Positions 1 to 11,598 of a stretch of DNA of 11,972 nucleotides are shown here, piece after piece; within the stretch, counting starts at the first letter, position 1, and each line of letters starts with the position of its first letter. The notes under the pieces are model-generated. The model was not told where the DNA came from. It did not search any database and was given only the letters and a program-made list of their open reading frames with translations. This DNA comes from an uncultured Lachnospiraceae bacterium (GTDB taxonomy: Bacteria > Bacillota > Clostridia > Lachnospirales > Lachnospiraceae): NCBI GenBank assembly GCA_944376975.1, contig CALWEE010000032.1, positions 1-11,972 of the forward strand, read 5' to 3'. The position numbers and the translations under genes were made by a program.

Positions 1-1556
1 GAAACCGCAAACCCTTTGTCTGCCGCCATCTTTTTAAAGATCTGCTCCAGTTCTTCCGGTTTATAGTCCTCAATACGGATCCAATTGTCTCCAAACCGTC
101 CTTTAAGGCCCTCGTTTGTCTCCATCAGTTCTTCCATCCGATCCGGATAGCCGGCCATGACCAGGGAAAACTCACCCTTGAACCGGTCCATATCCGCCAC
201 GATCTGGGTGACGATCTCCGGTTCGCCCGCCAGTTCGTAAGCTTCATCGATGAACAGAACACCGCCGATGGCATCTTCCACCGCCTGACGTATATTTTGC
301 TCCGATGCGCCTCTTACGCTTCCCACCAGTCTGGCCGGAGAAGTGACTATAGTATGACCAGTGGTCAAAAATCCATATTCACACAATATTTCCCCGAGAA
401 GTCTGGCCGCTGTCGTCTTTCCCGTTCCCTTGCTCCCTGTCAGCACAAAATGCAGGTTCGTCCGTTGGTTTTTCGGGCGTCCGGCAGGTCTTGACAGCCG
501 GTCCGGCGGCGCGTACCGATCGGCCTGTCCCTGATTTCTGTTCAGGTTTAAAAATCCGTTCACCGTATCCTTGACCGGTTTCATGCCCGTCAGATCGTTC
601 AGTTTTTCCAGGGCGGTTTTCTCGTCTTTTCTCCGGCATATCCTCCGGCAGGCTGCTTCGTTGAGCAAAGCGCCCTCCCCGGAAAAATGGATCATCAGAT
701 AACGGATCGTCCGTTCCAGATTATACGTTTTCAGTTCATCCCCGCCGTACAGATCCCCTGCGTCCATCTCTGAAACGTTCCTGGCGATCTTTCGGGCGAT
801 CAGATCACTGATCACATCCAGGTCTTTGCAGGCCACATTCAGTTTCCTGCCGTTAGTTCCGTGTATCCGCAGGTAATTCAAAGTGTTCCGGATCTCCTTT
901 TTCCCCGGAAGCGGGATCGTATGGGAAGTCGTCAGGGAAACATCCATCAAATATTTGTGCAGAGATTCTTTCTCCTTGCCCGACAGTATCGTTTCCACCT
1001 GGGAACGGCTTCGGTTGAACAGAAAAATGACCACATTGGGATTCATAACCCGCTCTATGCTGCTTTCCGTGATCCGGACAAAAAAATCATCCAGGATCTT
1101 GCCGTTCTCCACTCCGGCGAACTCCTTAAGAGTTTCGATCCCGTTTGGAAAGATGACGGCTGTGGCAATCTCTTTGTCATTGACAAAATGTTCGGCAGTA
1201 CGCATCATTTCCGCCGGCGCCACAGTAAAGGATAACTTTTCTTTTTTATCATCTGTTTTTGGCTTTGGGCGAAGGCTTCCCTTGATCAGACGTTTTGAAC
1301 CGAACAGATCCGTTTTTGGCTTTTCTTCCGTACGGCCGTACCATAGTTTTTTTGATCCTTCATCCAGGAAATAAGCGCCGTCTTTATAATTGTAAAAGAC
1401 GATCCGCTCATAGCCATGTACCCGCAGTTCCCGGTGGAGAGCCTGGCAGATGGTCTGGGGATAAAGGGTCTCATCCACAAACAGATCCCCCGTATTGCCG
1501 TAATAGGCAAAGAGCCGGGTTCCCAGATTCTCCCTGTCATAATAGGATGTCTTCAT
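1..1556 (-). CDS. CbbX/SpoVK-like AAA+ ATPase with long N-terminal extension (partial, C-terminus beyond left edge)
   Basis: 518 complete codons are visible and the frame is still open at the left edge. Residues about 317-518 form a AAA+ module of the CbbX/SpoVK type: an LTGMKPVKDTV lead-in (322-332), Walker A GSKGTGKT (374-381), Walker B GGVLFIDEAY (431-440), a MAGYP segment (467-471) and the GLKGRF arginine-finger motif (483-488). All ATPase residues expected in the visible part are present, so it should hydrolyse ATP and remodel a protein partner; CbbX relatives act as hexamers. The first 316 residues are extra compared with CbbX, which has about 300 residues in total. They contain repeated beta-strand-like hydrophobic runs (RIVFYN, VVIFLF) and could be a degenerate AAA module without a Walker A; that is inference. 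The ATG overlaps the stop of the preceding gene as ATGA, with GGAAGGA 11 bases upstream, which suggests translational coupling. The substrate is unknown. Confidence 0.9.
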   Translation of the reverse strand, partial: MKTSYYDRENLGTRLFAYYGNTGDLFVDETLYPQTICQALHRELRVHGYERIVFYNYKDGAYFLDEGSKKLWYGRTEEKPKTDLFGSKRLIKGSLRPKPKTDDKKEKLSFTVAPAEMMRTAEHFVNDKEIATAVIFPNGIETLKEFAGVENGKILDDFFVRITESSIERVMNPNVVIFLFNRSRSQVETILSGKEKESLHKYLMDVSLTTSHTIPLPGKKEIRNTLNYLRIHGTNGRKLNVACKDLDVISDLIARKIARNVSEMDAGDLYGGDELKTYNLERTIRYLMIHFSGEGALLNEAACRRICRRKDEKTALEKLNDLTGMKPVKDTVNGFLNLNRNQGQADRYAPPDRLSRPAGRPKNQRTNLHFVLTGSKGTGKTTAARLLGEILCEYGFLTTGHTIVTSPARLVGSVRGASEQNIRQAVEDAIGGVLFIDEAYELAGEPEIVTQIVADMDRFKGEFSLVMAGYPDRMEELMETNEGLKGRFGDNWIRIEDYKPEELEQIFKKMAADKGFAV

Positions 1557-2704
1557 ATCTGCTGTCTTCCTTCCGTTTCAGGCGCTGCCCTTTTTGCCGC
1601 AGCCTTCTGTTCAACTAAAGCTTCCTCCACTTCTTCCGTCCTGCTGTCCGGAGCCGCTGAACGGTTGGCATCCGCTTCACCGTCTTCCCCATTCATGCAC
1701 TGGCCGGATGCTTTTACCGCGCCGCCGTCCACCAGAGCGCCAAGTACCGTCTGCTGAAGCGCCGTGCGCAAAGCTTTGTTCCCTTCTTTAAAAAAACTGT
1801 CGATACGCACTTCCCCATTGATACCAAAGGTGATCACGGCCCGGTCGCCGGACACGTTCTTTACGCCGATATACAGGTCGTCAAACATATCCCGGCCTTC
1901 GGAAATCTCCCCGATCTGCCAGCCGGCATCCGCCAGTTTTTCGGCCACATTCTGAGCCTGTTCTTCCCTCCAAAGCTGGGTCGTGAACACTTGCCGGGCC
2001 TGTTCCGGAAGCTGGCCGATCTTTCCCTCCAGCGCGGAAAGCTTTTTTTCTCCATCCATCGTCTGTTCCATATCATATCCGGGCAATGCCTGACTCAGTT
2101 CGTCCAGCTGTTCCCGGATCCTTTCCAGCTCGCCCCTTGTCCGCTCATCCACCAGGGCTTCTGCCGTTTCCAGCCCTTCGCTTGTCGGGACCTGGAACAT
2201 GAGCATTTCCAGTTTTTGTATATTTTTACGGTCTGTCCGTATACGTTCCGTAAGTTGGTTCTGCGCTTCCGTCCATTCCAGCTGTTTTCGGCATGTCTCC
2301 TTTTCCAATGCCCGTCCCATTCCCATGATCCGGGCCGCGCAGGCGGCCAGGATCTGGCCGTCGCCGTCATAATGACCGGCTGCCTCATTCCACTCTCTGA
2401 ACAGCCCTTCCAGCTTCCCCGGGCAAAACTTTTCACAGTCGGATGCTGCCAGCCGGTCCAGCATGTTGCCTACCAGGGCCGCGTATTCTGTCCCGAGATC
2501 CGAGAAATCTTCTTCCATCTCCAAAGACCGGATATCTTCTTTCAGTTCTTTGATCTTCACATTGTTTTCCGACATCCGTATCAATTCCTGTTCTTCCTGA
2601 TAGGTGGCCGGTTTTACCGTCATTCCCCGTTCATCCCGATAAGTCGCTGTGGCGATCAGCGAATCTACGATAATGCCGTCTTTTATAATATAAACTGTAC
2701 TCAT
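1553..2704 (-). CDS. Coiled-coil protein, paralogue of the adjacent membrane-anchored protein
   Basis: This is a 383-residue protein of unknown function. The N-terminus (1-25) looks like a short beta-rich segment. Residues about 38-66 and 133-235 are charged and helical, likely coiled coil. Residues about 236-330 look like a compact domain, and the tail (335-383) is low-complexity, acidic then Ala/Lys-rich. The 236-330 domain matches the C-terminus of the next gene upstream: both have a GW dipeptide, an NG turn, then K-x-GN and a helical end. QVP-x-x-EG (171-177) and TRG-x-L (189-193) also occur in both, so the two are divergent paralogues. There is no signal peptide or membrane segment, so it is probably cytoplasmic. 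The start has AGGAGG five bases upstream, and the gene begins nine bases after its neighbour's stop. A scaffold or adaptor role for the AAA ATPase encoded next is inference. Confidence 0.85.
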   Translation of the reverse strand: MSTVYIIKDGIIVDSLIATATYRDERGMTVKPATYQEEQELIRMSENNVKIKELKEDIRSLEMEEDFSDLGTEYAALVGNMLDRLAASDCEKFCPGKLEGLFREWNEAAGHYDGDGQILAACAARIMGMGRALEKETCRKQLEWTEAQNQLTERIRTDRKNIQKLEMLMFQVPTSEGLETAEALVDERTRGELERIREQLDELSQALPGYDMEQTMDGEKKLSALEGKIGQLPEQARQVFTTQLWREEQAQNVAEKLADAGWQIGEISEGRDMFDDLYIGVKNVSGDRAVITFGINGEVRIDSFFKEGNKALRTALQQTVLGALVDGGAVKASGQCMNGEDGEADANRSAAPDSRTEEVEEALVEQKAAAKRAAPETEGRQQI

Positions 2705-2713
2705 ACATACCTC

Positions 2714-3811
2714 CTAAACCGCCAACGTCTGAAAATCGGTTATGGTAAAATCATTTTCATTTAAAGCCTGACGGATCATCGCCGCCAAATATTGCTGGAG
2801 ATCCCGGTTGCCCGTTTTACTGATCCGGACAGATACATGAAAGCCTCCATTTTCGGTGAAACGGAAACTCACCCGGTCCCATACGGCATTACGCATGATC
2901 AAAAAAGCCGGCTGCCGTTCATCATCCTCGTCATGGCCGACCGCCCTTTCCCCATCCAGTATCCATCCCCGTTTCTGCATGGCGTGATAAACGGCTTCGC
3001 ACATCTCCATCCTCTGGGCGGCATCCATGAATTTTTCCACTGCTTCCGTATTCAGATCCCGCATCCGATCCCGGATTCCGGCCAGCCTTTCCGTACGCTT
3101 CACAAGTTCTTCCGTACCCAGACTCCGATCCGGCGTCAGGGCCATGGCCTGGTCATAAAATCCGGACAGCTGTCCCCTTGTCCAGTAGTCCACATCCAGT
3201 GTCACCTGCTCATTTCCTTCGGCCGCAGGCACCTGAACCGGCCATGCTCCATATAATTCCTTAAGTCCCTTTACCACCGCTTCCGTCTCCAGATAGGCGG
3301 TATAAGCCTGTTCCCATTCGATCTCCCGGTCCAGGATGATCTTTTTGTCTCTCCGCGCCATCCGGCAGGCATTGCCTGCTTCCAGAAAGGCGGCCTGGCC
3401 GGCCCCTTTTTCTTTAAATACCTCCGTCTGCTCCATAGCCAGATCGATCTCTTCCAGAGCGCCGGGCAAAAACATTGCGTGACGTTTTCCGGCAATCTCA
3501 TCCCGCAGCTGTTTTGTCTCTTCGATCCACTTCTCTGTCTGCTCCGACTGATTTACGGCTCTTTCCGCCTTTTCTTCCTCAAGACTCTGTTTCTGTTTTT
3601 CCAGACCCCGGATAACCGATTCCTGTTCTTCCAGTTCCGTCCGGTTGTAGTCTGCCTGGTTCCAGAACTGCTCGTATTCCCTGTCAAAGGCAGAAGAACC
3701 ATCCTCGGAAAGGGCTCCCAGCAGAAGGATCAGTCCGCCCATCACCGCAGCGCCTTTCAGCACAGGTGAAGCATCCGCTAAGCTTTCGGTAATATTTTCA
3801 ATGATCTCCAT
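2714..3811 (-). CDS. Membrane-anchored coiled-coil protein
   Basis: This is a 365-residue protein of unknown function. A single hydrophobic segment at about residues 17-34 (VLKGAAVMGGLILLLGAL) is followed by an acidic stretch rather than a signal peptidase site, so it is more likely a membrane anchor than a cleaved signal. Residues about 55-110 are a strongly charged coiled coil. The middle (165-260) is helical, and the C-terminal domain (about 265-355) matches the C-terminal domain of the following gene (GW, D-rich turn, F-x-F, NG, K-x-GN pattern). The start is well supported: AAGGAGG lies five bases before the ATG, and the gene overlaps the radical SAM gene by 14 bp. It could tether the complex encoded by this operon to the membrane. 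Topology is unproven. Confidence 0.85.
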   Translation of the reverse strand: MEIIENITESLADASPVLKGAAVMGGLILLLGALSEDGSSAFDREYEQFWNQADYNRTELEEQESVIRGLEKQKQSLEEEKAERAVNQSEQTEKWIEETKQLRDEIAGKRHAMFLPGALEEIDLAMEQTEVFKEKGAGQAAFLEAGNACRMARRDKKIILDREIEWEQAYTAYLETEAVVKGLKELYGAWPVQVPAAEGNEQVTLDVDYWTRGQLSGFYDQAMALTPDRSLGTEELVKRTERLAGIRDRMRDLNTEAVEKFMDAAQRMEMCEAVYHAMQKRGWILDGERAVGHDEDDERQPAFLIMRNAVWDRVSFRFTENGGFHVSVRISKTGNRDLQQYLAAMIRQALNENDFTITDFQTLAV

Positions 3812-4400
3812 CCGGTCCTCCTTTCCAAAAATCTCTCAAATACCGGGCAAAATCCGCGCTGTGGCCGGAAGGCACACCCACCATGACCACTTCATTCCTG
3901 TCGGTTTCCGCCATCTGGATTTTTCTTCCCCATTCACCGTATTCTATCTTTCCCCGGTAACGTTCACTCAAGTGTATAAGCCTCTGATTGGAAGAACCTC
4001 TCATACTCCGGCCATCATCGGCTTCTTTGATATAAGGTCCATCGATCAGCGCATCGCATTGGCGCAGCAGCGGATGCCCGGCAACTTCTTCATAGGTGTA
4101 ACCTGTATAAAGGATAACCCCCAGATCCTTTTCCCGCCGGACGCGGCAAAGGAGTTTTTCCAGCGCCTCCGCCTGCAAAAAAGGTTCTCCTCCGCTTACG
4201 GTGATCCCTTCGATATCCGGAACGGAAAGGATTTCTCCGGCAAGGGTATCCTCGTCTGCCAGATAGCCCCCATCCATCCGGCCTGCCTCCGGGGAGATGC
4301 AGCCCGGGCAGTTCCTTTCACAGCCTTGAAGCCACAGTCCGAACCGGTCGTAGGGGCCTAAAGTCCGTATCCGGCGGACTGTCTGATATACCCGCAGCAT
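3798..4400 (-). CDS. NrdG-like radical SAM protein (anaerobic ribonucleotide reductase activase family)
   Basis: This 200-residue protein has the canonical radical SAM cluster motif CERNCPGC (Cys27, Cys31, Cys34; C-x3-C-x2-C) for a 4Fe-4S cluster that cleaves S-adenosylmethionine. SGGEP (69-73) is the SAM-binding motif and GSSNQR (135-140) is typical of NrdG. The rest also follows NrdG: a GLWLQGC strand before the cluster and DALIDGPYI at 116-124. Family members install a glycyl radical in the class III ribonucleotide reductase NrdD, but no nrdD is in view. The neighbours are chaperone-like and coiled-coil genes, so here the protein may activate or modify another target, or serve as an iron-sulfur or oxygen sensor. 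It starts three bases after the preceding stop with GGAG six bases upstream. The family call is strong; the target is unknown. Confidence 0.92.
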   Translation of the reverse strand: MLRVYQTVRRIRTLGPYDRFGLWLQGCERNCPGCISPEAGRMDGGYLADEDTLAGEILSVPDIEGITVSGGEPFLQAEALEKLLCRVRREKDLGVILYTGYTYEEVAGHPLLRQCDALIDGPYIKEADDGRSMRGSSNQRLIHLSERYRGKIEYGEWGRKIQMAETDRNEVVMVGVPSGHSADFARYLRDFWKGGPDGDH

Positions 4401-4403
4401 GGC

Positions 4404-5147
4404 TTACTCCAGGGAAACGGACTGGCTGATCCGTTCCATCTCGGCCAATATCTGATCCAAAAGACCGGAAGAAAGCTGTCTCCTTTCCTCGGCCTCCTTG
4501 CGGGTTTGTTTTGCGCGGGCGATCAGGTCGTCCACGCTTTTCATCCCTGTCTCATCCGGCATGGCCTGGATCAGCCGGCTGTTTTCTCCCAATTCCGCCG
4601 TCATGTCCTCCAGTTCTTTCCGGCCAAGACGGCACTGTTCGGTCAGCGTCGCAGCCTTTTCCTTCCAGCCGTCGATCTCTTTCTGAAGCTCTTTCAGATC
4701 TTTTTCCTTCAGCTCGGAAAGTTGCTTTTCTTTTTCTTTTAGTTTCTTCAGTTCTTTTTCCTTATCGCAAAGAGCCTTCTCCATGGAAAGCAGCTCTTTT
4801 GCCCGTTCCTTTTCTTCCTCCAGCTCCGCCTGCTTTTTTTCAAAATCCTTTTGGAGTATTTCTATCCGCTCTTTCAGCTTTGGCGTCAGACCTGCCTGCT
4901 CCCAGTAGGGCCTGGTCCGGTTAAAAACAGCGGCCATTTCGTTGGCCCCAGCCACACTGACCATGTACAGCCGGCGCAGCCCATCCCCGTCTTCATCCGC
5001 TTTTGCCGCCTTTTCCATAACCGCCGCGGACTGGCTGATCAAAAGCCGGGCCGCCGTCAGAGCATATTCGCAGGCTTTTATATCGGAGCCCTTTTCCGCT
5101 TCCTGCTCACAGTCCGACAGCGTCTGCCGGATCAATTCCATATTCAT
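4404..5147 (-). CDS. Lys/Glu-rich coiled-coil protein
   Basis: This is a 247-residue cytoplasmic protein with no recognised family. Residues 1-88 look like a helical bundle (AACEYALTAARLLISQS-type pattern), about 90-195 is a long coiled coil very rich in Lys and Glu, and 200-245 is another helical stretch. There is no signal peptide, membrane segment or catalytic motif. The ATG overlaps the stop of the Hsp70-like gene as ATGA, with GGAGGGG just upstream, so the two are probably translationally coupled. That pairing makes it a candidate partner of the Hsp70-like protein, for instance a nucleotide exchange or cochaperone factor in place of GrpE (also a coiled coil). There is no sequence evidence for GrpE homology, so this is speculation. 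An internal ATG two codons downstream is an alternative start. Confidence 0.8.
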   Translation of the reverse strand: MNMELIRQTLSDCEQEAEKGSDIKACEYALTAARLLISQSAAVMEKAAKADEDGDGLRRLYMVSVAGANEMAAVFNRTRPYWEQAGLTPKLKERIEILQKDFEKKQAELEEEKERAKELLSMEKALCDKEKELKKLKEKEKQLSELKEKDLKELQKEIDGWKEKAATLTEQCRLGRKELEDMTAELGENSRLIQAMPDETGMKSVDDLIARAKQTRKEAEERRQLSSGLLDQILAEMERISQSVSLE

Positions 5148-6787
5148 AGCTGCTCCCCTCCTTTCTTAGCAAGTCTCAGGGAAATTTTTTCCACGATCCG
5201 ATTCAGCGATTCGCTTCGCACATTCCCATATTTATCTTTTATGTGGATCATCGGTATCTGATGTTTCCCCATGGACAGGCCGATACGGTAATCATTGTCC
5301 GGATCATCCGTATTCGGGCACAGCTGCACAAGACTTTCATCCATCTTCACCGGTATCTTCCCGCTGCCGTCGTCGAAAAACAGCCGGATCACGCTGGACC
5401 TTCCAAGGGAACTGACTTTTAAAACACCGCCGAAATAAACCGGTTCCCTATAATCTTTCACCGGGTGATCCCGCCGGATCAGCGCCGCCGTCTTTTCTTC
5501 CTCATCAAAAACATCGTAATAGTAAAAGCCTATGTCGCTCTGACACTGATAGGAAACCTCCGCCATACCGGAAGCAATAATGGCAGCCCCATGGGCAATG
5601 GCGGTGGAACGGGCGTCCATCCGCAGTCCATGATCAAACCGCCGGTCTTTCACTCCGTCCATGGACTCAAACACTTCCCTCACAGTGGATTCCACACAAT
5701 AAAGACTGGAAAAGCCGCCCACCATCAGCACCCGGAAATGATCCTGGCTCTTTGTGTCGATATCCAACTCATGGCAATAACGGGCAATGTTGTCCAACGC
5801 TTCTTTCAGCGGCTTCTCGTTCACCCGGGCAAAAGTTTCCGCCACATCCGAAGCCATGATCTCAAATTCTCCAAACCGGTCGTCGATCAGGTCAAAAGCC
5901 GGCATATCGTTGTAACTTTCCCCGCTGATCTTATCATAGAGTTCATAATATCCTTTCAAAGCTTCCGTCGTTGTCTCCGAGGAAGCGATCTTTGCCGTTT
6001 CAAGCGCGCTGCGCAGGGCGATGAACCGGGATGTCCCTTCCTCATATTCTTTCGAGTCCAGGCCGTTGTTTTCGATCATCCGTTTTGTCAGCGCATCATC
6101 AAAGGCAGCCCCCGCGCAGCCGGTATCCCTGCCGCCATCGCCGCACCGGCGCAGCACGGTTATATTGGTCCCGTCTCCGGTTTCACACAAGGTCAGATCC
6201 AATGTGCCGCCGCCATAATCCACCACAACCATATGGCCCCTGTATTTTCCGCGGCAGACTTCCCGGCAGTAATAGACAGCGGCGGATACCGGTTCGCTCT
6301 CAAAAGCCACGTTTTCATCTGCTTCATAGCCGAGCTGATCATAGATTTCTGTCAGGTGATCTACGGCAATTTTGTTTTCCTCTTCATTCTTCCATATATC
6401 CGGAACCGTCATCACGATGCCGGTCACCTGTTCACCGGATTTTTGTTCATACTTTTTTATGACTTCACTGATAAAATCCCGGGCTGTTTCCATGGGTGAT
6501 TTTTCCCGCCCGTTTTTCTTTTCCGCGCCCTGTCCCATGGACAGTTTGAAACGCTCGTAAAAATCATATTTTGATGAAAAGCGGTATCTTTCCGCCGCCT
6601 TGCCAATGTAACGGATGTGATCGTTATCCTTCCGGTAGGCGATCATGGTCGGAAAAAAATCCATACTCTGACTGTCAAATTTAAGAAAATCGAAGGCGTT
6701 CCTTTCCCGGTTGAAAAAGCAGCAGGCGCTGTTGGTCGTACCCAAGTCCAGTCCCAGCCGGTCGCCCCTTCCGGTTACTTTGTCCAT
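5144..6787 (-). CDS. Non-canonical Hsp70-family ATPase (DnaK-like)
   Basis: This 547-residue protein has a complete Hsp70/actin-type nucleotide-binding domain. Phosphate-1 is GLDLGTTNS (12-20). A lysine at 63 in IGKAA fits the catalytic Lys70 of DnaK. The ESEPVSAA segment (163-170), phosphate-2 VVDYGGGTLDL (188-198) and the adenosine motif VGGFSS (356-361) follow, then ARSTAIAHGAA (392-402). ATP binding and hydrolysis are therefore expected. The region after about residue 430 is only about 115 residues and has no obvious long helical lid, against roughly 230 residues for the DnaK substrate domain plus lid. Substrate binding is therefore likely different. No DnaJ or GrpE gene is in view. GGGGGAG lies six bases before the ATG, and the gene overlaps the upstream gene by 13 bp and the downstream gene by 4 bp. 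It is probably a specialised Hsp70 dedicated to this operon, not the housekeeping DnaK. Confidence 0.92.
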   Translation of the reverse strand: MDKVTGRGDRLGLDLGTTNSACCFFNRERNAFDFLKFDSQSMDFFPTMIAYRKDNDHIRYIGKAAERYRFSSKYDFYERFKLSMGQGAEKKNGREKSPMETARDFISEVIKKYEQKSGEQVTGIVMTVPDIWKNEEENKIAVDHLTEIYDQLGYEADENVAFESEPVSAAVYYCREVCRGKYRGHMVVVDYGGGTLDLTLCETGDGTNITVLRRCGDGGRDTGCAGAAFDDALTKRMIENNGLDSKEYEEGTSRFIALRSALETAKIASSETTTEALKGYYELYDKISGESYNDMPAFDLIDDRFGEFEIMASDVAETFARVNEKPLKEALDNIARYCHELDIDTKSQDHFRVLMVGGFSSLYCVESTVREVFESMDGVKDRRFDHGLRMDARSTAIAHGAAIIASGMAEVSYQCQSDIGFYYYDVFDEEEKTAALIRRDHPVKDYREPVYFGGVLKVSSLGRSSVIRLFFDDGSGKIPVKMDESLVQLCPNTDDPDNDYRIGLSMGKHQIPMIHIKDKYGNVRSESLNRIVEKISLRLAKKGGEQL

Positions 6788-7710
6788 AGCCGACTCCCCC
6801 TTTCCCTAAACTGTCCGATCTTATCTTCACATAATATCATATATTGATCGCGAAAACTTTTCTTTGAGCGAAAAAGCCCCTTTCCCGACCACAGGTGGGT
6901 CACCAGATCCTGCTTTTCGAGTGGCCGATCATACTCCAGATAAGTCTTTACAGATATATTCCATGATGCGGCGCACATGCCCAGGATCCTCTGTTCCGCA
7001 AAAACCATACACCAGGAACCGTTATCCAGAGTATCCCTTTCATACTGCATGAACCGGACGGATTCTTTTGCATAGTAATTCTTAAAATCTTCGTCACCAA
7101 AATAGGCAATGGATGTGTTCAGAGGCAATGCCTTTGTGTCCCAGGCCGGCCATGTGTAATAGGGACTCATCAGGAAAAAATCCGGTGACGGATAAATATT
7201 TTCATCCAACGGCTCTGTGTGGGCCGCTGCCAGCAGGCATCCATCCACATCCAGCTCCTTCCAGACGATCAGATCCAGATCCATCAAAAGACAGGGGGCC
7301 TTGATCCGGTGCAGCGCCTGGATCTTTCCTGCCGCCCAGAACTTGGACGGATCGATACCGTAATTGCGCCTGTCCAGTATTTCAAGCACATCGTCATACA
7401 CCTGATCCATATGGTATTTTCTGAAATATTCCGCCCCAGGCCCATCGGTCACAAGACAGATGGGCCCGTTGTAGCGTCTCCAGGCAAGGGCGGATAAAAC
7501 CGCCGTCTGTCTCTCAAATTCCGGCATAAAAAAGGGTTCATCCGGATGATGGTAAGACCATGGAGAAGTTAAAAGCACATGATACGCCGTCAGTTCCTGC
7601 CGCTTCTTTGGCGCCGGAAGAAGGGACGCCGCCATATTGTGCATGCCCACGCCTCCCAGGAACAGTTCCCCGTCAAAAAAAGCCTGTCTGATGATCATAT
7701 CCTTTTCCAT
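6775..7710 (-). CDS. Glycosyltransferase-like protein with DxD motif
   Basis: This is a 311-residue protein when started at ATG 7710. A central segment FWAAGKIQAL (124-133) followed by CLLMDLDLIVW (140-150) has the form of a GT-A-fold nucleotide-sugar enzyme: a hydrophobic strand ending in Asp-x-Asp (144-146), which in that fold binds the metal and sugar nucleotide. CLVTDGPG (85-92) would fit an earlier Rossmann-like strand, and LNTSIAYFG further on fits the acceptor region. I recall uncharacterised GT-like families with a similar K-x-x-A...D-x-D layout but cannot assign one with certainty. There is no signal peptide or membrane segment. The longer frame from 7827 was rejected because it lies inside the upstream gene, whereas ATG 7710 has GGAGG seven bases away. 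ATG 7698 (ATGA overlap) is another possible start. A sugar donor or acceptor is not evident. Confidence 0.8.
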   Translation of the reverse strand: MEKDMIIRQAFFDGELFLGGVGMHNMAASLLPAPKKRQELTAYHVLLTSPWSYHHPDEPFFMPEFERQTAVLSALAWRRYNGPICLVTDGPGAEYFRKYHMDQVYDDVLEILDRRNYGIDPSKFWAAGKIQALHRIKAPCLLMDLDLIVWKELDVDGCLLAAAHTEPLDENIYPSPDFFLMSPYYTWPAWDTKALPLNTSIAYFGDEDFKNYYAKESVRFMQYERDTLDNGSWCMVFAEQRILGMCAASWNISVKTYLEYDRPLEKQDLVTHLWSGKGLFRSKKSFRDQYMILCEDKIGQFRERGSRLWTK

Positions 7711-8963
7711 ACTTTTTCCTCCGGAAGCCGGAACACCACGCCCTCCTCTTGTCCCAAAAGCTTCAATTTTTCCGTAAATCGGCGAAGATCCTGTTTCATC
7801 TCTGTCAAATAAGACCGACGGATCCACAGGAAATCACCGTTCTTCAAAGCAAGGAGCAGATGCGTCCGGTTCTCATCCATAGCTTTTACGTCTTCCAGTT
7901 CCGTCTGGGAAACCTTTGAGGGTTGTTCCGGTTTCTTTGCCGGAATCGGATCGTAAATCCAGGCATTGGTCCGATACAAAACAGGCCGACAGCTTCTCCG
8001 TCGGATGATTTCCGTCACCCGAGGACTTGTTGTGACCCGGGCTCCGGCCTGCTGCCGTTCCTCCTTCAAGTCATCCCACCATCCGCCGTCCGGGCGCTCA
8101 TAACCGTACTCCTGATCATAAAACATGGAATAGGCGAGGGGCCGTTTCTCTTCCTTTTCATCTTCTTGCCTGTTTTCTTCCACTTCCAGGTTAATCTCTC
8201 CATACTGATAGGCAAAACGGGGATACATCTCCGTCTCCCAAAGCTGCCTGTAGAGATCTTCCTGTTCCGTATACATCTTTTTGAGGCAGGAAAAATCCCG
8301 GCTGTACTCCTGACGGCGCTTTTTCATGGCAACCATTTCCTTCCCTTCGATCTGATAGTCGCAGCTTTGCAAAGTCATCTCCGGAAAAGAATAGATTTTC
8401 TCTTTCGCCACCGGTTCCACAATGCCGTCCGTATTATCCCCGAAAACATACCACTGCCCCTTTTGATCCAAAATGTAAAATATATCCCTCAGACGGACCG
8501 ATTCCACATGGGCAGCGCCGGAAAGGTTTTTGATCGTATCGCTTTCGTAAGCCGGTCCCCGTATATGGACTGCTCCGTCTTTTGTCACATAAACCGAGTG
8601 GCTGGAGCCGGCCGCCGCGCTGATGACATTGGACGCCATCCGCCTTGGCCTGTGATAATATGTCTCGCCAAATGCGTGAAAAGCTGTTTTCCTGTATTTC
8701 GTGATCTGGCCGTCTTCATTGCTGCCAATGCCGTACAATACATCCTTATCCGACAGGATCAGTCCATGTTTTACTCCGGCACAGACCCATGGACGCAGCC
8801 GATCCCTGCAAAGCCTGAAATGGGAACCGACCCATGCTTCATATTCCTCTTTGTCTAAAAAAATCCGGTCCAGCTGGTCGAATCCGCAGAATGGGCAGGC
8901 ATCCGCCCCTTCCGGCAGTTCCTTATAGCAGGCCGGACATGTTTTATTTTTTTCTTCATTCAT
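7695..8963 (-). CDS. Zinc-ribbon/RCC1-like repeat protein (third paralogue)
   Basis: This is a 422-residue protein. The N-terminal zinc ribbon has two CxxC pairs (Cys9/12 and Cys23/26) and is followed by a family-specific FDQLDRIFLDKEEY linker (28-41). Residues about 62-185 carry three degenerate RCC1-like repeats: VKHGLIL..LYGIGSNEDGQI, then ISAAAGSSHSVYVTKDGAVHI, then FYILDQKGQWYVFGDNTDG. RCC1 repeats form beta-propellers that bind proteins or chromatin in eukaryotes; bacterial ones are mostly uncharacterised. A charged helical segment (215-310) precedes the shared IYDPIP motif (336-341) and a C-terminal domain with KNGDFLW (374-380). The gene starts 22 bases after its paralogue's stop with GGAG seven bases upstream, and overlaps the GT-like gene by 16 bp. 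It is probably a cytoplasmic recognition or adaptor protein; binding partners are unknown. Confidence 0.87.
   Translation of the reverse strand: MNEEKNKTCPACYKELPEGADACPFCGFDQLDRIFLDKEEYEAWVGSHFRLCRDRLRPWVCAGVKHGLILSDKDVLYGIGSNEDGQITKYRKTAFHAFGETYYHRPRRMASNVISAAAGSSHSVYVTKDGAVHIRGPAYESDTIKNLSGAAHVESVRLRDIFYILDQKGQWYVFGDNTDGIVEPVAKEKIYSFPEMTLQSCDYQIEGKEMVAMKKRRQEYSRDFSCLKKMYTEQEDLYRQLWETEMYPRFAYQYGEINLEVEENRQEDEKEEKRPLAYSMFYDQEYGYERPDGGWWDDLKEERQQAGARVTTSPRVTEIIRRRSCRPVLYRTNAWIYDPIPAKKPEQPSKVSQTELEDVKAMDENRTHLLLALKNGDFLWIRRSYLTEMKQDLRRFTEKLKLLGQEEGVVFRLPEEKVWKRI
7718..7722 (-). promoter_or_regulatory. Ribosome binding site deciding the start of the GT-like gene
   Basis: GGAGG lies 7 bases before ATG 7710, inside the end of the upstream gene. 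This selects the 311-residue product over the 350-residue frame that starts at 7827. Confidence 0.65.
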
Positions 8964-8984
8964 TTCTTTTCTCCGAAAATTCCA

Positions 8985-10007
8985 TCAATCGTCGCCATCT
9001 GTCATTCCGTCTTTTCTTTCACAAGGAATCGGCTCGAAAACAGCCTCATTCGTCCGATACACCACCGAATGATAATCCCTCCAGTATTCACTCACTTTTA
9101 TCCAGGACGGCGAAACCATCTCCCAGTCTTTTTGGGCCCACCAGTAGGATACCGGATTTCCGGCAAACATTTCCTGCCATTTTCCAAAGTCCTCCTTGTC
9201 CTCTTTGGCGATCCGGATATTTTTTTCACTGATCCGTGTATACTCTGCATCTAAATCTACCCAAAGATTATGGCTTGAATACCGGGCGCAAAGTTCTTTA
9301 TATCTGTCCAGTCCGCAGATCCATCTGTATATTGAGCTGAGATCTTCTCCAAACAGCCGGTTGCCGGAAGCGCTTCGGGTGATCATAAAAGAGCCCTTTT
9401 CCTCCAGGCGTTGCGCCCATCCCTCAAAGTAATAGTTGACTGTCCTTTCATGTCTGTCCGGCGGCCGCCATACTTCTTCTTTCACCCGCGGGGCAAAAAT
9501 GTCCGTCCGGTTATCGCCAAAGGCAAACCACTGTCCCTGCGTATCCAGGATAAAAAAACGATCCCGCTTTTTATCCGCCTCCACCCGTACCGCGCCGGAA
9601 AAGCCTTTAAACCGTTCTCCGAATACACCCCTTCCCTGGATGTGTACCTGTCCGTCAGATGTGACATAAATGGAATAGTTACAGCCGGCATCGGCGCTGA
9701 TCACCCCATCCTGCATCCGTATCCGGTGATCATAATTCTCCTGATCCGTATCGCTGATCTGCCCCGTATCATTGCAGCCAATGCCGTAAAGAGCGCCGCC
9801 TTCCAGTATCAGCCTATGCTTTGCCCCCTGGAATACGCAAGGCTCTGACCGCCCTGCGCAGGAATCCAGCTTTGTCCGCAGCCATACCTTTTGATCGTCT
9901 CTGTCCAGAAATATCCGATCCAGTTGGGAAAACCCGCAGAATGGGCAGGTATCCGTCCCTTCCGGCAGATCCTTATGGCAGGCCGGACATATTTTCCCTT
10001 TTCCCAC
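8985..10007 (-). CDS. Zinc-ribbon/RCC1-like repeat protein (second paralogue, short C-terminus)
   Basis: This is a 340-residue protein from a GTG start at 10007. The zinc ribbon uses Cys7/10 and Cys21/24, followed by FSQLDRIFLDRDD. Three RCC1-like repeats follow at about 58-170: AKHRLILEGGALYGIGCND, then ISADAGCNYSIYVTSDGQV, then FFILDTQGQWFAFGDN. Its repeats align without gaps to the first paralogue (both have QGRGV...RFKGF.GAVRVEA), while its zinc ribbon is closest to the third. The protein ends ten residues after the shared FEPIPC motif and lacks the roughly 80-95-residue C-terminal domain of both paralogues. Only 21 bases separate it from the next gene, so no remnant can follow. GTG 10007 is preferred because AAGGAGG lies six bases upstream; ATG 10013 abuts that site directly, and the 10094 start would put the TATAAT box inside the gene. 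It is the first gene of the main operon. Confidence 0.85.
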   Translation of the reverse strand: MGKGKICPACHKDLPEGTDTCPFCGFSQLDRIFLDRDDQKVWLRTKLDSCAGRSEPCVFQGAKHRLILEGGALYGIGCNDTGQISDTDQENYDHRIRMQDGVISADAGCNYSIYVTSDGQVHIQGRGVFGERFKGFSGAVRVEADKKRDRFFILDTQGQWFAFGDNRTDIFAPRVKEEVWRPPDRHERTVNYYFEGWAQRLEEKGSFMITRSASGNRLFGEDLSSIYRWICGLDRYKELCARYSSHNLWVDLDAEYTRISEKNIRIAKEDKEDFGKWQEMFAGNPVSYWWAQKDWEMVSPSWIKVSEYWRDYHSVVYRTNEAVFEPIPCERKDGMTDGDD

Positions 10008-10013
10008 ATTCAT

Positions 10014-10020
10014 CCTCCTT
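10014..10020 (-). promoter_or_regulatory. Ribosome binding site deciding the start of the second zinc-ribbon/RCC1 gene
   Basis: A full AAGGAGG directly abuts ATG 10013 and lies 6 bases before GTG 10007 in the same frame. Zero spacing is not functional, so GTG 10007 is the better start. Confidence 0.6.
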
Positions 10021-10058
10021 TTTTGATAAACTTCTTCCTTTCTGATGCTTCTGTATTT

Positions 10059-10089
10059 ATTATACAGGCCGTTTCCCGTTTTTTCTCCA
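10059..10089 (-). promoter_or_regulatory. Putative promoter of the main operon
   Basis: A perfect TATAAT lies at 10059-10064 on the minus strand, about 50 bases upstream of the start codon at 10007. The -35 region is weak: TGGAGA (10084-10089, spacing 19) or GGAGAA (10083-10088, spacing 18). A weak -35 box is often seen where an activator helps. Transcription would begin near 10052, downstream of the alternative ATG at 10094. Confidence 0.5.
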
Positions 10090-10110
10090 GTCATTTACCG
10101 CCGTTTCCCG
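10068..10110 (-). repeat. Pair of 11-bp direct repeats at the operon promoter
   Basis: CGGGAAACGGC occurs exactly twice on the minus strand (10068-10078 and 10100-10110), 32 bases apart start to start, which is about three helical turns. One copy lies inside the promoter spacer and the other upstream of the -35 region. This spacing is what a regulator binding two sites on one face of the DNA would need, so it is a candidate operator. Confidence 0.4.
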
Positions 10111-10210: not shown

Positions 10211-11590
10211 TTAAAGACTCAGTTCAAAAGCGATGGGCACATCAAATAACATCCAGCTATATTTATCATTTCTCACGTCTTTCCAAACTTTTCTTAAAAA
10301 TGTTTTAGAAGATTTCGAGTTTATCCGTATCAAAGGCTTTGTAAGCTGACGCTCCATATACTCTTTTATTTTTTTCTCTGCCACCCAGAGGAATTTGCCT
10401 TCTTCAATACAGATAAGATATCTCTCACCGTATTTATCCGCCATCGGAATCTCTTGAAACATCCACGGCCATTCCCGTTTTTCCTCTTTTACTTTACAGG
10501 GGATCGGATCGTAAATCTGACGGCATTCATAATATAAGGCTATACTGTAAGATTCTTCATATTCTTTTGCATATAAAGCGTTTCTGTCCCAAGGATACCC
10601 TCTATTATCGTATCTCCGATCCATTAAGTAATTCCAGCACTCATTCAGCGTCTGCTGATCCGCTTCTTTTTTTAACCGACTATCCAGTTGTGTGATTTCC
10701 ATCCGCAGATTTTTTTCTCCCAGCCGTTTTCTCAGATCCTGGTACCTTTCATGACGGCTGACCTGGAAAAGAAGCTGATTTCGGGCGTCTGTCAGTTCGC
10801 CATGAACTGAAAAATGTCCCGTATAAAAACTACGGCCAGTGTAGGGCTGGAAGGCCTTTGGAAGTATTTCGCCTTTTCCGCTATAGAAGTACCGAACCGT
10901 CTGCACCTTACAGTTTGGCCAATAAAACGCCATTTTTTCTACCTGCCCAGTCAGATGGCCGTCCTCATTATCTCCGAACGCAAGCCACTGCCCTTCTTTA
11001 TTTTGTAAATAAAAAACATCTCCATGATCTTTGGATGCTTCTACCCGCACGGCACCCTCAAACCCTTTGAAACGATCCTTATAGACGCCCCTCCCCTGCA
11101 AATAAACCTGCCCGTTTTTTGAAATATATAGAGTGTAATTTAAACTTGCGGCCGCGCTTAGCACGTGATCGGCGATCAGATGAGGGGTGGTATAGGATCT
11201 TCTATCAGAATCAGCTATTTGTCCGGTATCATTTTCACCGATGCCATAAAGTTTTCCATCGCCGGTAAGGATAAGTCCGTGTCTGGCGCCAGCGATCACC
11301 TTCACATTCTCATGCTCAACCGCAGGCCGTCCGAACCATGACTTTACGATCGTCTGCTCCCTTTCCAAAAACAAAGGCGGCAAAACGTCCTCCTTTATCT
11401 GTCCTCCATCCAGCCTGGTTTCTTTTTTGGGCTTCTCTTGGGATGAACGCTTTTCTTTTTGCCAGTCCTCATAATCCTCTTTGCTTAAAAATATCCGATT
11501 CATCTGGTCAAAACCGCAAAACGGACAAACATCTGCTTCCTGCCCGATATCTTTTTTACAAACCGGACATATTTTTCCTCTTTTCATCAT
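10211..11590 (-). CDS. Zinc-ribbon/RCC1-like repeat protein (first paralogue)
   Basis: This is a 459-residue protein from ATG 11590. The zinc ribbon uses Cys8/11 and Cys22/25, then FDQMNRIFLSKEDY (27-40) and a charged, probably disordered linker (41-75). RCC1-like repeats occupy about 96-212: VKVIAGARHGLILTGDGKLYG, LSAAASLNYTLYISKNGQVYL, and FYLQNKEGQWLAFGDNEDG; the first fits the RCC1 consensus best. A helical middle (265-345) leads to IYDPIP (359-364) and a C-terminal domain with EEGKFLW (396-402). The gene looks more AT-rich by eye than the operon below it. It is a single gene with its own putative promoter and is separated from the second paralogue by 200 bp. The start is one of GTG 11593, ATG 11590 or ATG 11587; 11590 lies eight bases from AGGAG. 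Function is not established. A protein-recognition propeller is the likely role. Confidence 0.87.
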   Translation of the reverse strand: MMKRGKICPVCKKDIGQEADVCPFCGFDQMNRIFLSKEDYEDWQKEKRSSQEKPKKETRLDGGQIKEDVLPPLFLEREQTIVKSWFGRPAVEHENVKVIAGARHGLILTGDGKLYGIGENDTGQIADSDRRSYTTPHLIADHVLSAAASLNYTLYISKNGQVYLQGRGVYKDRFKGFEGAVRVEASKDHGDVFYLQNKEGQWLAFGDNEDGHLTGQVEKMAFYWPNCKVQTVRYFYSGKGEILPKAFQPYTGRSFYTGHFSVHGELTDARNQLLFQVSRHERYQDLRKRLGEKNLRMEITQLDSRLKKEADQQTLNECWNYLMDRRYDNRGYPWDRNALYAKEYEESYSIALYYECRQIYDPIPCKVKEEKREWPWMFQEIPMADKYGERYLICIEEGKFLWVAEKKIKEYMERQLTKPLIRINSKSSKTFLRKVWKDVRNDKYSWMLFDVPIAFELSL

Positions 11591-11598
11591 CACCTTGT

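Follow-up and report, generated by a model that had tools for sequence, protein, structure and literature searches.

What do the closely packed genes on contig CALWEE010000032.1 of an uncultured Lachnospiraceae bacterium (assembly GCA_944376975.1) do, and do they work together? The stretch of DNA analyzed here, called the window, is this entire contig (C32, 11,972 bp) of a draft genome of 1.83 Mb in 274 contigs. Its ORF (open reading frame) coordinates define ten minus-strand genes in series, which form one compact unit. We find that these genes make up a real, conserved, and rarely found accessory operon of a wider family. At the recurrent core of that family, a radical S-adenosylmethionine (SAM) enzyme is joined by an AAA+ ATPase, which has an N-terminal domain of its own, and by one or two coiled-coil proteins. 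The radical SAM enzyme (RS) belongs to a clade that is related to NrdG and distinct from it. Full-text searching of the literature, with most subscription journals outside its coverage, returned no description of this operon, and the wider family has apparently not been described before. The function and the substrate of the operon are what we infer from these comparisons.

Gene Order and Its Conservation in a Second Genus

The first gene, ZR1 (10211–11593), encodes a 460-amino-acid (aa) protein with a zinc-ribbon-like N terminus (CxxC..CxxC) and RCC1-like repeats. Two further genes for proteins with a zinc ribbon and RCC1-like repeats follow, ZR2 (8985–10094, up to 369 aa) and ZR3 (7695–8963, 422 aa), and then genes for a DUF6734 protein (6775–7710, 311 aa counted from the ATG at 7710), an Hsp70-like protein (HSP; 5144–6787, 547 aa), a coiled-coil protein (CC1; 4404–5147, 247 aa), and the NrdG-like enzyme RS (3798–4400, 200 aa). 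Downstream of RS lie two more coiled-coil genes, CC2 (2714–3811, 365 aa) and CC3 (1553–2704, 383 aa), and the AAA+ gene (3–1556), which is interrupted by the contig end; the window holds the first 518 aa of its product, comprising the N-terminal domain and the first of two SpoVK/CbbX-like AAA modules.

A preliminary description of this DNA reported nine genes separated by gaps of +21, −16, −13, −4, +3, −14, +9, and −4 bp. Recomputed from the ORF coordinates, these values are exact, presupposing that the DUF6734 gene starts at ATG 7710 (its mechanical ORF starts at 7827), and all nine genes lie on the minus strand. The upstream limit given there, 10007, is the GTG start of ZR2, for which an ATG at 10013 is an alternative and whose mechanical ORF starts at 10094. 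The nine genes were borne out, but the unit extends further: ZR1, a tenth co-directional gene 116 bp upstream of the first ZR2 ATG, had been overlooked and is part of the gene set.

The order of these genes recurs in another genus. In genome G067 (locus L107), ZR, DUF6734, HSP, CC1, RS, CC2, CC3, and AAA+ genes follow each other as in the window. Over the aligned parts, identities to the window proteins are 27–37% for ZR, 51% for DUF6734, 46% for HSP, 39% for CC1, 51% for RS, 24% for CC2, 34% for CC3, and 41% for AAA+, the alignments of CC1, CC2, and two of the three ZR proteins spanning only 41–56% of the window protein. Loss of RS from this locus was considered and ruled out, as the RS frame is present. 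The recurrence of the eight-gene order at 24–51% identity in a second genus indicates that the grouping is more than chance, and it agrees with the earlier claim of a single operon-like unit.

RS Forms a Clade Apart from NrdG

RS matches Pfam Fer4_12 (1.8e-27), carries the motifs CX3CX2C and GGEP, and resembles NrdG in overall length and sequence. The designation NrdG-like in the preliminary description is correct as far as this relationship goes, but RS is not the ribonucleotide reductase activator. Against the curated NrdG model (TIGR02491), RS scores 90.5 bits, below the cut-off of 126.1 bits. A true NrdG is encoded elsewhere in the same genome; it scores 178.8 bits, above the cut-off, and adjoins NrdD on contig C270.

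An RS search of GTDB species genomes yielded the best 80 of 127 loci. In a tree of 80 RS/NrdG rows, 43 rows fall on one side of a branch with support of 100/97; the bootstrap had not settled (0.987, below the required 0.99), and the branches of L059 and L079 are long. NrdD adjoins 31 of the 37 rows outside this RS clade, the row of the genome's own NrdG being labeled from the NrdG–NrdD pair described above. Within the clade, NrdD was found in none of the 43 fetched loci, many of which are shortened by contig ends. The separate NrdG–NrdD pair and the separate clade rule out RS as the genome's activator of NrdD. RS thus differs from NrdG in its score, its clade, and its neighbors, and represents a distinct NrdG-related clade. 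Members occur in Bacillota, Bacteroidota, Chloroflexota, Cyanobacteriota, Actinomycetota, and Myxococcota, and all 43 rows keep CX3CX2C and GGEP. An RGSSNQR-type motif is present in 14 of the 43 clade rows versus 12 of 36 outside.

Neither NrdD nor a Gly_radical domain was found in five of the 43 clade genomes, those of L027, L049, L052, L059, and L072, which comprise one named strain, Flexilinea flocculi TC1, and four metagenome-assembled genomes (MAGs). In those five, a known glycyl-radical enzyme is therefore unlikely to be the substrate. The earlier suggestion that RS senses redox state found no counterpart, as nothing among our results points to redox sensing.

A Recurrent Core with Exchangeable Flanks

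RS itself was counted with a profile search over all ORFs, since longer overlapping ORFs mask RS in some loci (e.g., L019 and L024). Among the first 36 RS loci (L003–L038), the AAA N-terminal domain is present in 28, including L027, where it scores weakly (25 bits). In four more (L032, L035, L036, and L037, the last being a repeat of L036), the AAA+ protein belongs to the same cluster but has diverged at its N terminus, and the contig ends before the AAA+ gene in the remaining four (L008, L015, L017, and L022). Most of these 36 loci have one or two coiled-coil genes between RS and AAA+. Gene order differs in distant members, for example, L050, L059, and L079. These data define the recurrent core as RS, one or two coiled-coil proteins, and AAA+ with its own N-terminal domain.

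The genes around this core vary. An Hsp70-profile match occurs anywhere in the fetched stretch in 14 of the 43 clade loci, including weak matches in L032 (31 bits) and L036 (54 bits) and an Hsp70 gene downstream of AAA+ in L009. In 12 of the 43, TerD-profile genes lie upstream of RS (Pfam TerD, 1.4e-68 on one), and nine of these 12 also have a P-type ATPase gene (Pfam on one). TerD and Hsp70 occur together in no locus of the 43. Three RS loci share a GAP1-like gene; the L021 protein scores 24.8 bits against the GAP1-M cut-off of 24, and L034 and L038 are assigned by clustering only. In three Bacteroidota loci, zinc-ribbon, vWA-like, PP2C, and kinase genes lie downstream of AAA+; Pfam was applied to one representative of each, with vWA at 23.1 bits, under its cut-off of 23.8, and the zinc ribbon recognized by eye only. 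Protein kinases are also present in L043 and L059, and relatives of the zinc-ribbon/RCC1 proteins (cluster F12) are found downstream of AAA+ in L005, L006, L007, L016, and L019. Hsp70 does not belong to the invariant part and represents one of several alternative modules around the core. Locus L106 (G194) is of the Hsp70 type, and L105 (G112) has the core with FtsK-like and weakly HerA-like ATPases alongside.

Several loci add variations on this theme. In L049, L052, and L072 (Anaerolineaceae), an Hsp70-like gene lies just upstream of the clade RS, and no AAA+ or coiled-coil profile match was found in the fetched stretch; these two genes possibly constitute a minimal pair. The large FtsK/SpoIIIE-like and weakly HerA-like ATPases that follow the RS core in L105 (1–6147) match Mads (mad8) profiles and, for one of them, SspH profiles at 56–63 bits. 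In L024 (4003–6133; Bacteroidota), JAB-domain and ThiF/E1-like proteins, a ubiquitin-like pair, are encoded on the strand opposite the RS core.

The coiled-coil proteins share a feature at their N termini. An xSG start occurs in 22 of 51 coiled-coil genes of two clustered families versus 10 of 946 other genes (L003–L082), and many AAA+-adjacent coiled-coil genes, including those of L110 and L111, start with MSG despite a divergent remainder. In the window, CC3 starts with MST and CC2 with MEI. The xSG/MSG start may possibly be a docking or modification site.

A Variable Genomic Site

A close relative, Candidatus Onthocola gallistercoris (L003), is 98.2% identical over the window. There, an EF-G-like gene and leuS, each identified by eye, flank the operon, and the complete AAA+ protein has 843 aa and two intact Walker A/B pairs. 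In our genome, contig C74 carries, at its end and next to leuS, a 275-aa stretch that is 100% identical to the tail of this protein. L003 has two T-box leaders, at 105–353 and 15449–15674; the latter (RF00230) lies after the AAA+ stop codon and upstream of leuS.

The occupancy of this site differs among the five genomes searched in the genus. The Hsp70-like gene is present at 99–100% identity in two, our genome and G201, apparently the genome of L003. In G202, the EF-G-like gene and leuS are 238 bp apart with nothing in between, constituting an empty site, and G200 has two other ORFs there, one serine recombinase-like by eye. No match to leuS was obtained in G203, the fifth genome, which is uninformative on the site. 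The site therefore varies within the genus, in line with the variable location raised in the preliminary description. At the empty site in G202 (L102, 1–8271), the region immediately upstream of the EF-G gene contains genes that by eye are phage-like, for tail, holin, and amidase proteins.

Beyond the genus, the operon is rare. A search of family genomes with the AAA N-terminal domain, using a model built from RS-found loci and a search not conditioned on RS, was positive in four of 200, our own genome included. In 391 genomes of the class, it returned our genome and one weak partial match. Conversely, all three family genomes other than our own that were found by this domain (G067, G112, and G194) carry RS in the cluster. 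The ratio of nonsynonymous to synonymous changes (dN/dS) relative to the sister genome is about 0.05–0.10 in HSP, CC2, and AAA+, from small counts. Diversifying selection on the ZR genes was considered, but their dN/dS of 0.30–0.57 comes from few changes and is not evidence for it. The DUF6734 gene (6775–7710, compared with L003 6574–7626) is more diverged than its neighbors, with 28.5 synonymous changes counted; recombination is perhaps the source of this local divergence between the two genomes.

Plasmid Copies and Defense-Like Neighbors

Relatives of the core also occur on plasmids. A plasmid search gave 37 records, of which seven were examined and 13 Clostridioides records were left out. 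A complete Hsp70-type set is found in Calothrix sp. PCC 6303, on its mobilizable plasmid pCAL6303.02: Hsp70 (139 bits to the HSP profile), a TPR protein in which a P-loop-like segment was seen by eye, RS, a coiled coil starting with MSG, AAA+ with the N-terminal domain (158 bits), and a zinc-ribbon-like protein (by eye). On a Rhizobium leguminosarum plasmid, RS lies between an AAA+ gene of the L043/L059 type and a gene whose 2086-aa product combines kinase, DUF4011, SF1 helicase, and MTES_1575 nuclease-like domains and matches the candidate-defense profile PDC-S37 at 462.5 bits. On a Polaromonas plasmid, an AAA+–RS pair adjoins a PIN-domain protein. The defense-like neighbors of relatives, here and below, support the link to defense genes for which the preliminary description had proposed a search.

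Clade assignment of the plasmid RS proteins rests on profile scores rather than on the tree. Scores against the clade and NrdG profiles are 227 and 160 bits for Calothrix, 213 and 160 for Geminocystis, and 149 and 120 for Rhizobium, which clearly lean to the clade. The Treponema, Paenibacillus, and Rhodococcus proteins give near ties. The Polaromonas protein leans to NrdG (140 bits for the clade versus 158), yet its best blastp match is the clade member L079.

The other plasmids differ in their surroundings. On the Geminocystis plasmid pGM01 (L116, 2719–13114), RS is 69% identical to that of L027. The hypothetical genes that come next include two whose starts look P-loop-like by eye, and a dGTPase and an annotated anti-phage dCTP deaminase are encoded nearby. 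The Treponema succinifaciens plasmid (L112, 2561–14162) has NrdG-like radical SAM and AAA+ genes within a contractile-injection-type cluster. The Paenibacillus and Rhodococcus plasmids (L113 and L114) have clusters of AAA+, DUF1257 or hypothetical, DUF2997, and radical SAM genes; these represent another radical SAM–AAA+ pairing with different partners.

A second Hsp70-like gene, 26–27% identical to the HSP of the window, is present on contig C94 of our genome (G000, L108) and on contig C17 of G201 (L109, 594–10694). It adjoins a gene for a 603–611-aa protein whose start resembles the AAA N-terminal domain by eye. L109 also contains a coiled-coil gene (by eye) and a gene for a 1742-aa helicase-nuclease that matches PDC-S37 at 762 bits.

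Relation to Known Systems

In its proposed working, the operon resembles nucleoside triphosphate (NTP)-dependent, chaperone-based conflict systems, but it lacks the features that define membership in them. The GTPase-centric and MoxR-vWA systems, as presented by Kaur et al. (2020; PMC7159879), have a chaperone ATPase core, with Hsp70 in some, together with zinc ribbons, kinase, PP2C, or vWA partners, and in one subset a radical SAM protein; the text searched contains no mention of SpoVK, CbbX, or RCC1. Chaperone ATPases, Hsp70, and zinc ribbons are found here too, and three RS loci have the GAP1-like gene; the difference is that the recurrent part is RS, coiled coil, and AAA+ rather than a GTPase or MoxR-vWA. 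No GAP1 or GTPase match, the DO-GTPase and GAP1 being the GTPase-centric feature, was obtained among the ten window proteins. There is likewise no vWA match in the window, and its AAA+ protein is SpoVK/CbbX-like, with no MoxR-type match.

A second comparison is with the Ter (TerD/TerC/TerY-P) stress-response loci, which were reportedly described by Anantharaman and colleagues in 2012. Points of likeness are the TerD-profile genes upstream of the same core in 12 clade loci and, in the three Bacteroidota loci, the kinase, PP2C, and vWA-like genes located downstream of that core. In contrast, no TerD, TerC, or vWA Pfam match was found among the window proteins, and the window has Hsp70 and zinc-ribbon/RCC1 proteins in place of Ter genes.

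The AAA+ module in the window is matched by the profiles of spore_V_K (3.5e-34), EccA (3.5e-30), and CbbX (1.4e-25), and its Walker motifs are intact. However, it falls far under each equivalog cut-off, with 118.1 versus 422.95 bits for SpoVK (on the incomplete window protein), and in the full protein, two AAA modules follow an N-terminal domain to which no fold has been assigned.

Proposed Function and Alternatives

We tentatively favor, with slightly less than even confidence, the explanation that the operon is an accessory stress or conflict system: Hsp70 and AAA+ would remodel a complex, and RS would modify that complex. We do so because the gene order is kept, the RS clade lacks NrdD, the core recurs, the distribution is patchy with an empty site, and copies exist on plasmids (Calothrix, Rhizobium), with a candidate-defense neighbor on that of Rhizobium. 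In such a system, the proteins would form one machine near the membrane, tethered through the hydrophobic stretch of CC2. The zinc-ribbon/RCC1 proteins would serve as the input or docking side, a position that TerD, GAP1-like, vWA/kinase, or TPR proteins may take as they flank the core in other loci. Driven by ATP, Hsp70 and the tandem AAA+ ring would hold a partner or remodel it, this partner most likely being a coiled-coil subunit, and RS, with its 4Fe-4S cluster and SAM, would make a radical modification that switches the complex on. The outcome could be protection under stress or from invading DNA.

Several observations weigh against this proposal. Most clade genomes hold glycyl-radical enzymes (NrdD in 37 of 43, a Gly_radical domain in 35 of 43), and action of RS on one of these is therefore possible in Clostridia. 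When the ten window proteins were compared with PADLOC-DB, no convincing match was obtained (best E 0.0007, for a coiled coil), the matches being weak coiled-coil, generic AAA, or similar ones only; the link to conflict consequently rests on the relatives. Viral contigs, in exact-peptide scans, and phage records yielded no relative, and no integrase was seen among the operon genes. A by-eye suggestion that the AAA N-terminal domain is a decayed AAA module was unsupported (hhalign probability 3.9%).

The glycyl-radical enzymes lead to a different account, in which RS activates such a host enzyme, or re-activates it after damage, and Hsp70 and the CbbX-like AAA+ open the target. In its favor are the likeness of RS to NrdG along most of the sequence, the role of CbbX as a Rubisco activase, and the RGSSNQR-type motif, which persists in 14 of the 43 clade rows (12 of 36 outside). 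We nevertheless consider this account improbable, given that no fetched clade locus has NrdD, that a separate NrdG–NrdD pair exists in the genome, and that five of the 43 clade genomes, most of them MAGs of unstated completeness, match neither NrdD nor Gly_radical. A response to metals or oxidants of the Ter type, not aimed at invaders and with the Hsp70/zinc-ribbon module as its sensor in place of TerD, is a real contender although still unlikely. The TerD genes upstream of RS, nine times out of 12 with a P-type ATPase gene, speak for it; the window itself has no TerD, TerC, or vWA match, no clade locus combines TerD with Hsp70, and candidate-defense genes stand beside related cores in other loci. 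That the genes are merely co-transcribed neighbors without a joint function is scarcely credible. The recognized domain families are individually common, but the order is kept at 24–51% identity in another genus, the core spans several phyla, and HSP, CC2, and AAA+ show few nonsynonymous changes relative to the sister genome, again from small counts.

Returning to the preferred stress or conflict system, a bolder version, which we regard as rather unlikely, is that the operon exemplifies an undescribed class in which exchangeable sensor/chaperone modules feed the RS–coiled coil–AAA+ core. RS would be the shared switch and would place a radical mark on the scaffold protein of that core, perhaps at its conserved N terminus, which is often MSG. 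The modules of that class, in an equally doubtful assignment, might be Hsp70 with zinc-ribbon/RCC1, TerD, GAP1-like, kinase/vWA, and TPR proteins. If true, one radical SAM–AAA+ core would link Ter stress loci, GAP1/Hsp70 conflict systems, and kinase/vWA/PP2C clusters, and all three groups would share the questions of what RS targets and whether the ATPases control it. An NrdG-type enzyme would also have a second career, in which glycyl-radical enzymes play no part. Because the operon is small and has named relatives, these ideas can be tested; the relatives are the Calothrix sp. PCC 6303 plasmid and Flexilinea flocculi with its Hsp70–RS pair.

Individual Proteins

The two ATPase machines and the radical SAM enzyme named in the preliminary description agree with the Pfam and curated-profile matches. 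The N-terminal domain of AAA+ is conserved, and its profile gave nothing below E 0.06 against PDB sequences. A VSGYF sequence near the AAA+ C terminus was considered as a glycyl-radical-like motif and dropped, because by eye it belongs to an ordinary C-terminal AAA region. HSP has an actin-like ATPase domain (PF00012, HSP70, 2.9e-13, residues 11–405) and matches DnaK chains in the PDB. A canonical Hsp70 substrate-binding domain was not recognized in it, the listed PDB Hsp70 matches lying within residues 8–286 and the Pfam match reaching 405. PHROGs contains phage families with related Hsp70, AAA, and RCC1 domains.

Among the coiled-coil proteins, CC1 gave no family in a Pfam scan. CC2 has a hydrophobic N-terminal stretch by eye, consistent with the claim of a membrane-anchored coiled-coil protein, and is related to CC3: it matches the CC3 of L107 with E 1e-9 over 146 residues and also the CC2 of that locus. 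In CC3, the N terminus is strongly conserved, and a C-terminal α/β domain is predicted (predicted local distance difference test, pLDDT, 78). In a search of 5.8 billion proteins, with the 8000 best candidates scored, CC3 has five close relatives besides the species' own copy.

The DUF6734 match (4e-7; 30.2 bits, cut-off 27) was obtained on the longer ORF (6775–7827), and the protein is glycosyltransferase-like by eye, with a DLD motif. ZR1 matches RCC1_2 (2.5e-7) and WD40_RLD (1.3e-11), and its zinc-ribbon cysteines were seen by eye in an alignment with ZR2 and ZR3; ZR2 is a paralogue of ZR1 and ZR3. The designation of these proteins as propeller-type is borne out in that a few RCC1 repeats were found per protein, but not to the extent of a complete propeller. 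For ZR1, the search of the 5.8 billion proteins gave no close relatives beyond its own copy and one 340-aa protein, from the same species, that reads as ZR2. In the comparison with L003, the first 116 bp of ZR3 are like those of ZR2 (9898–10013), at about 82%.

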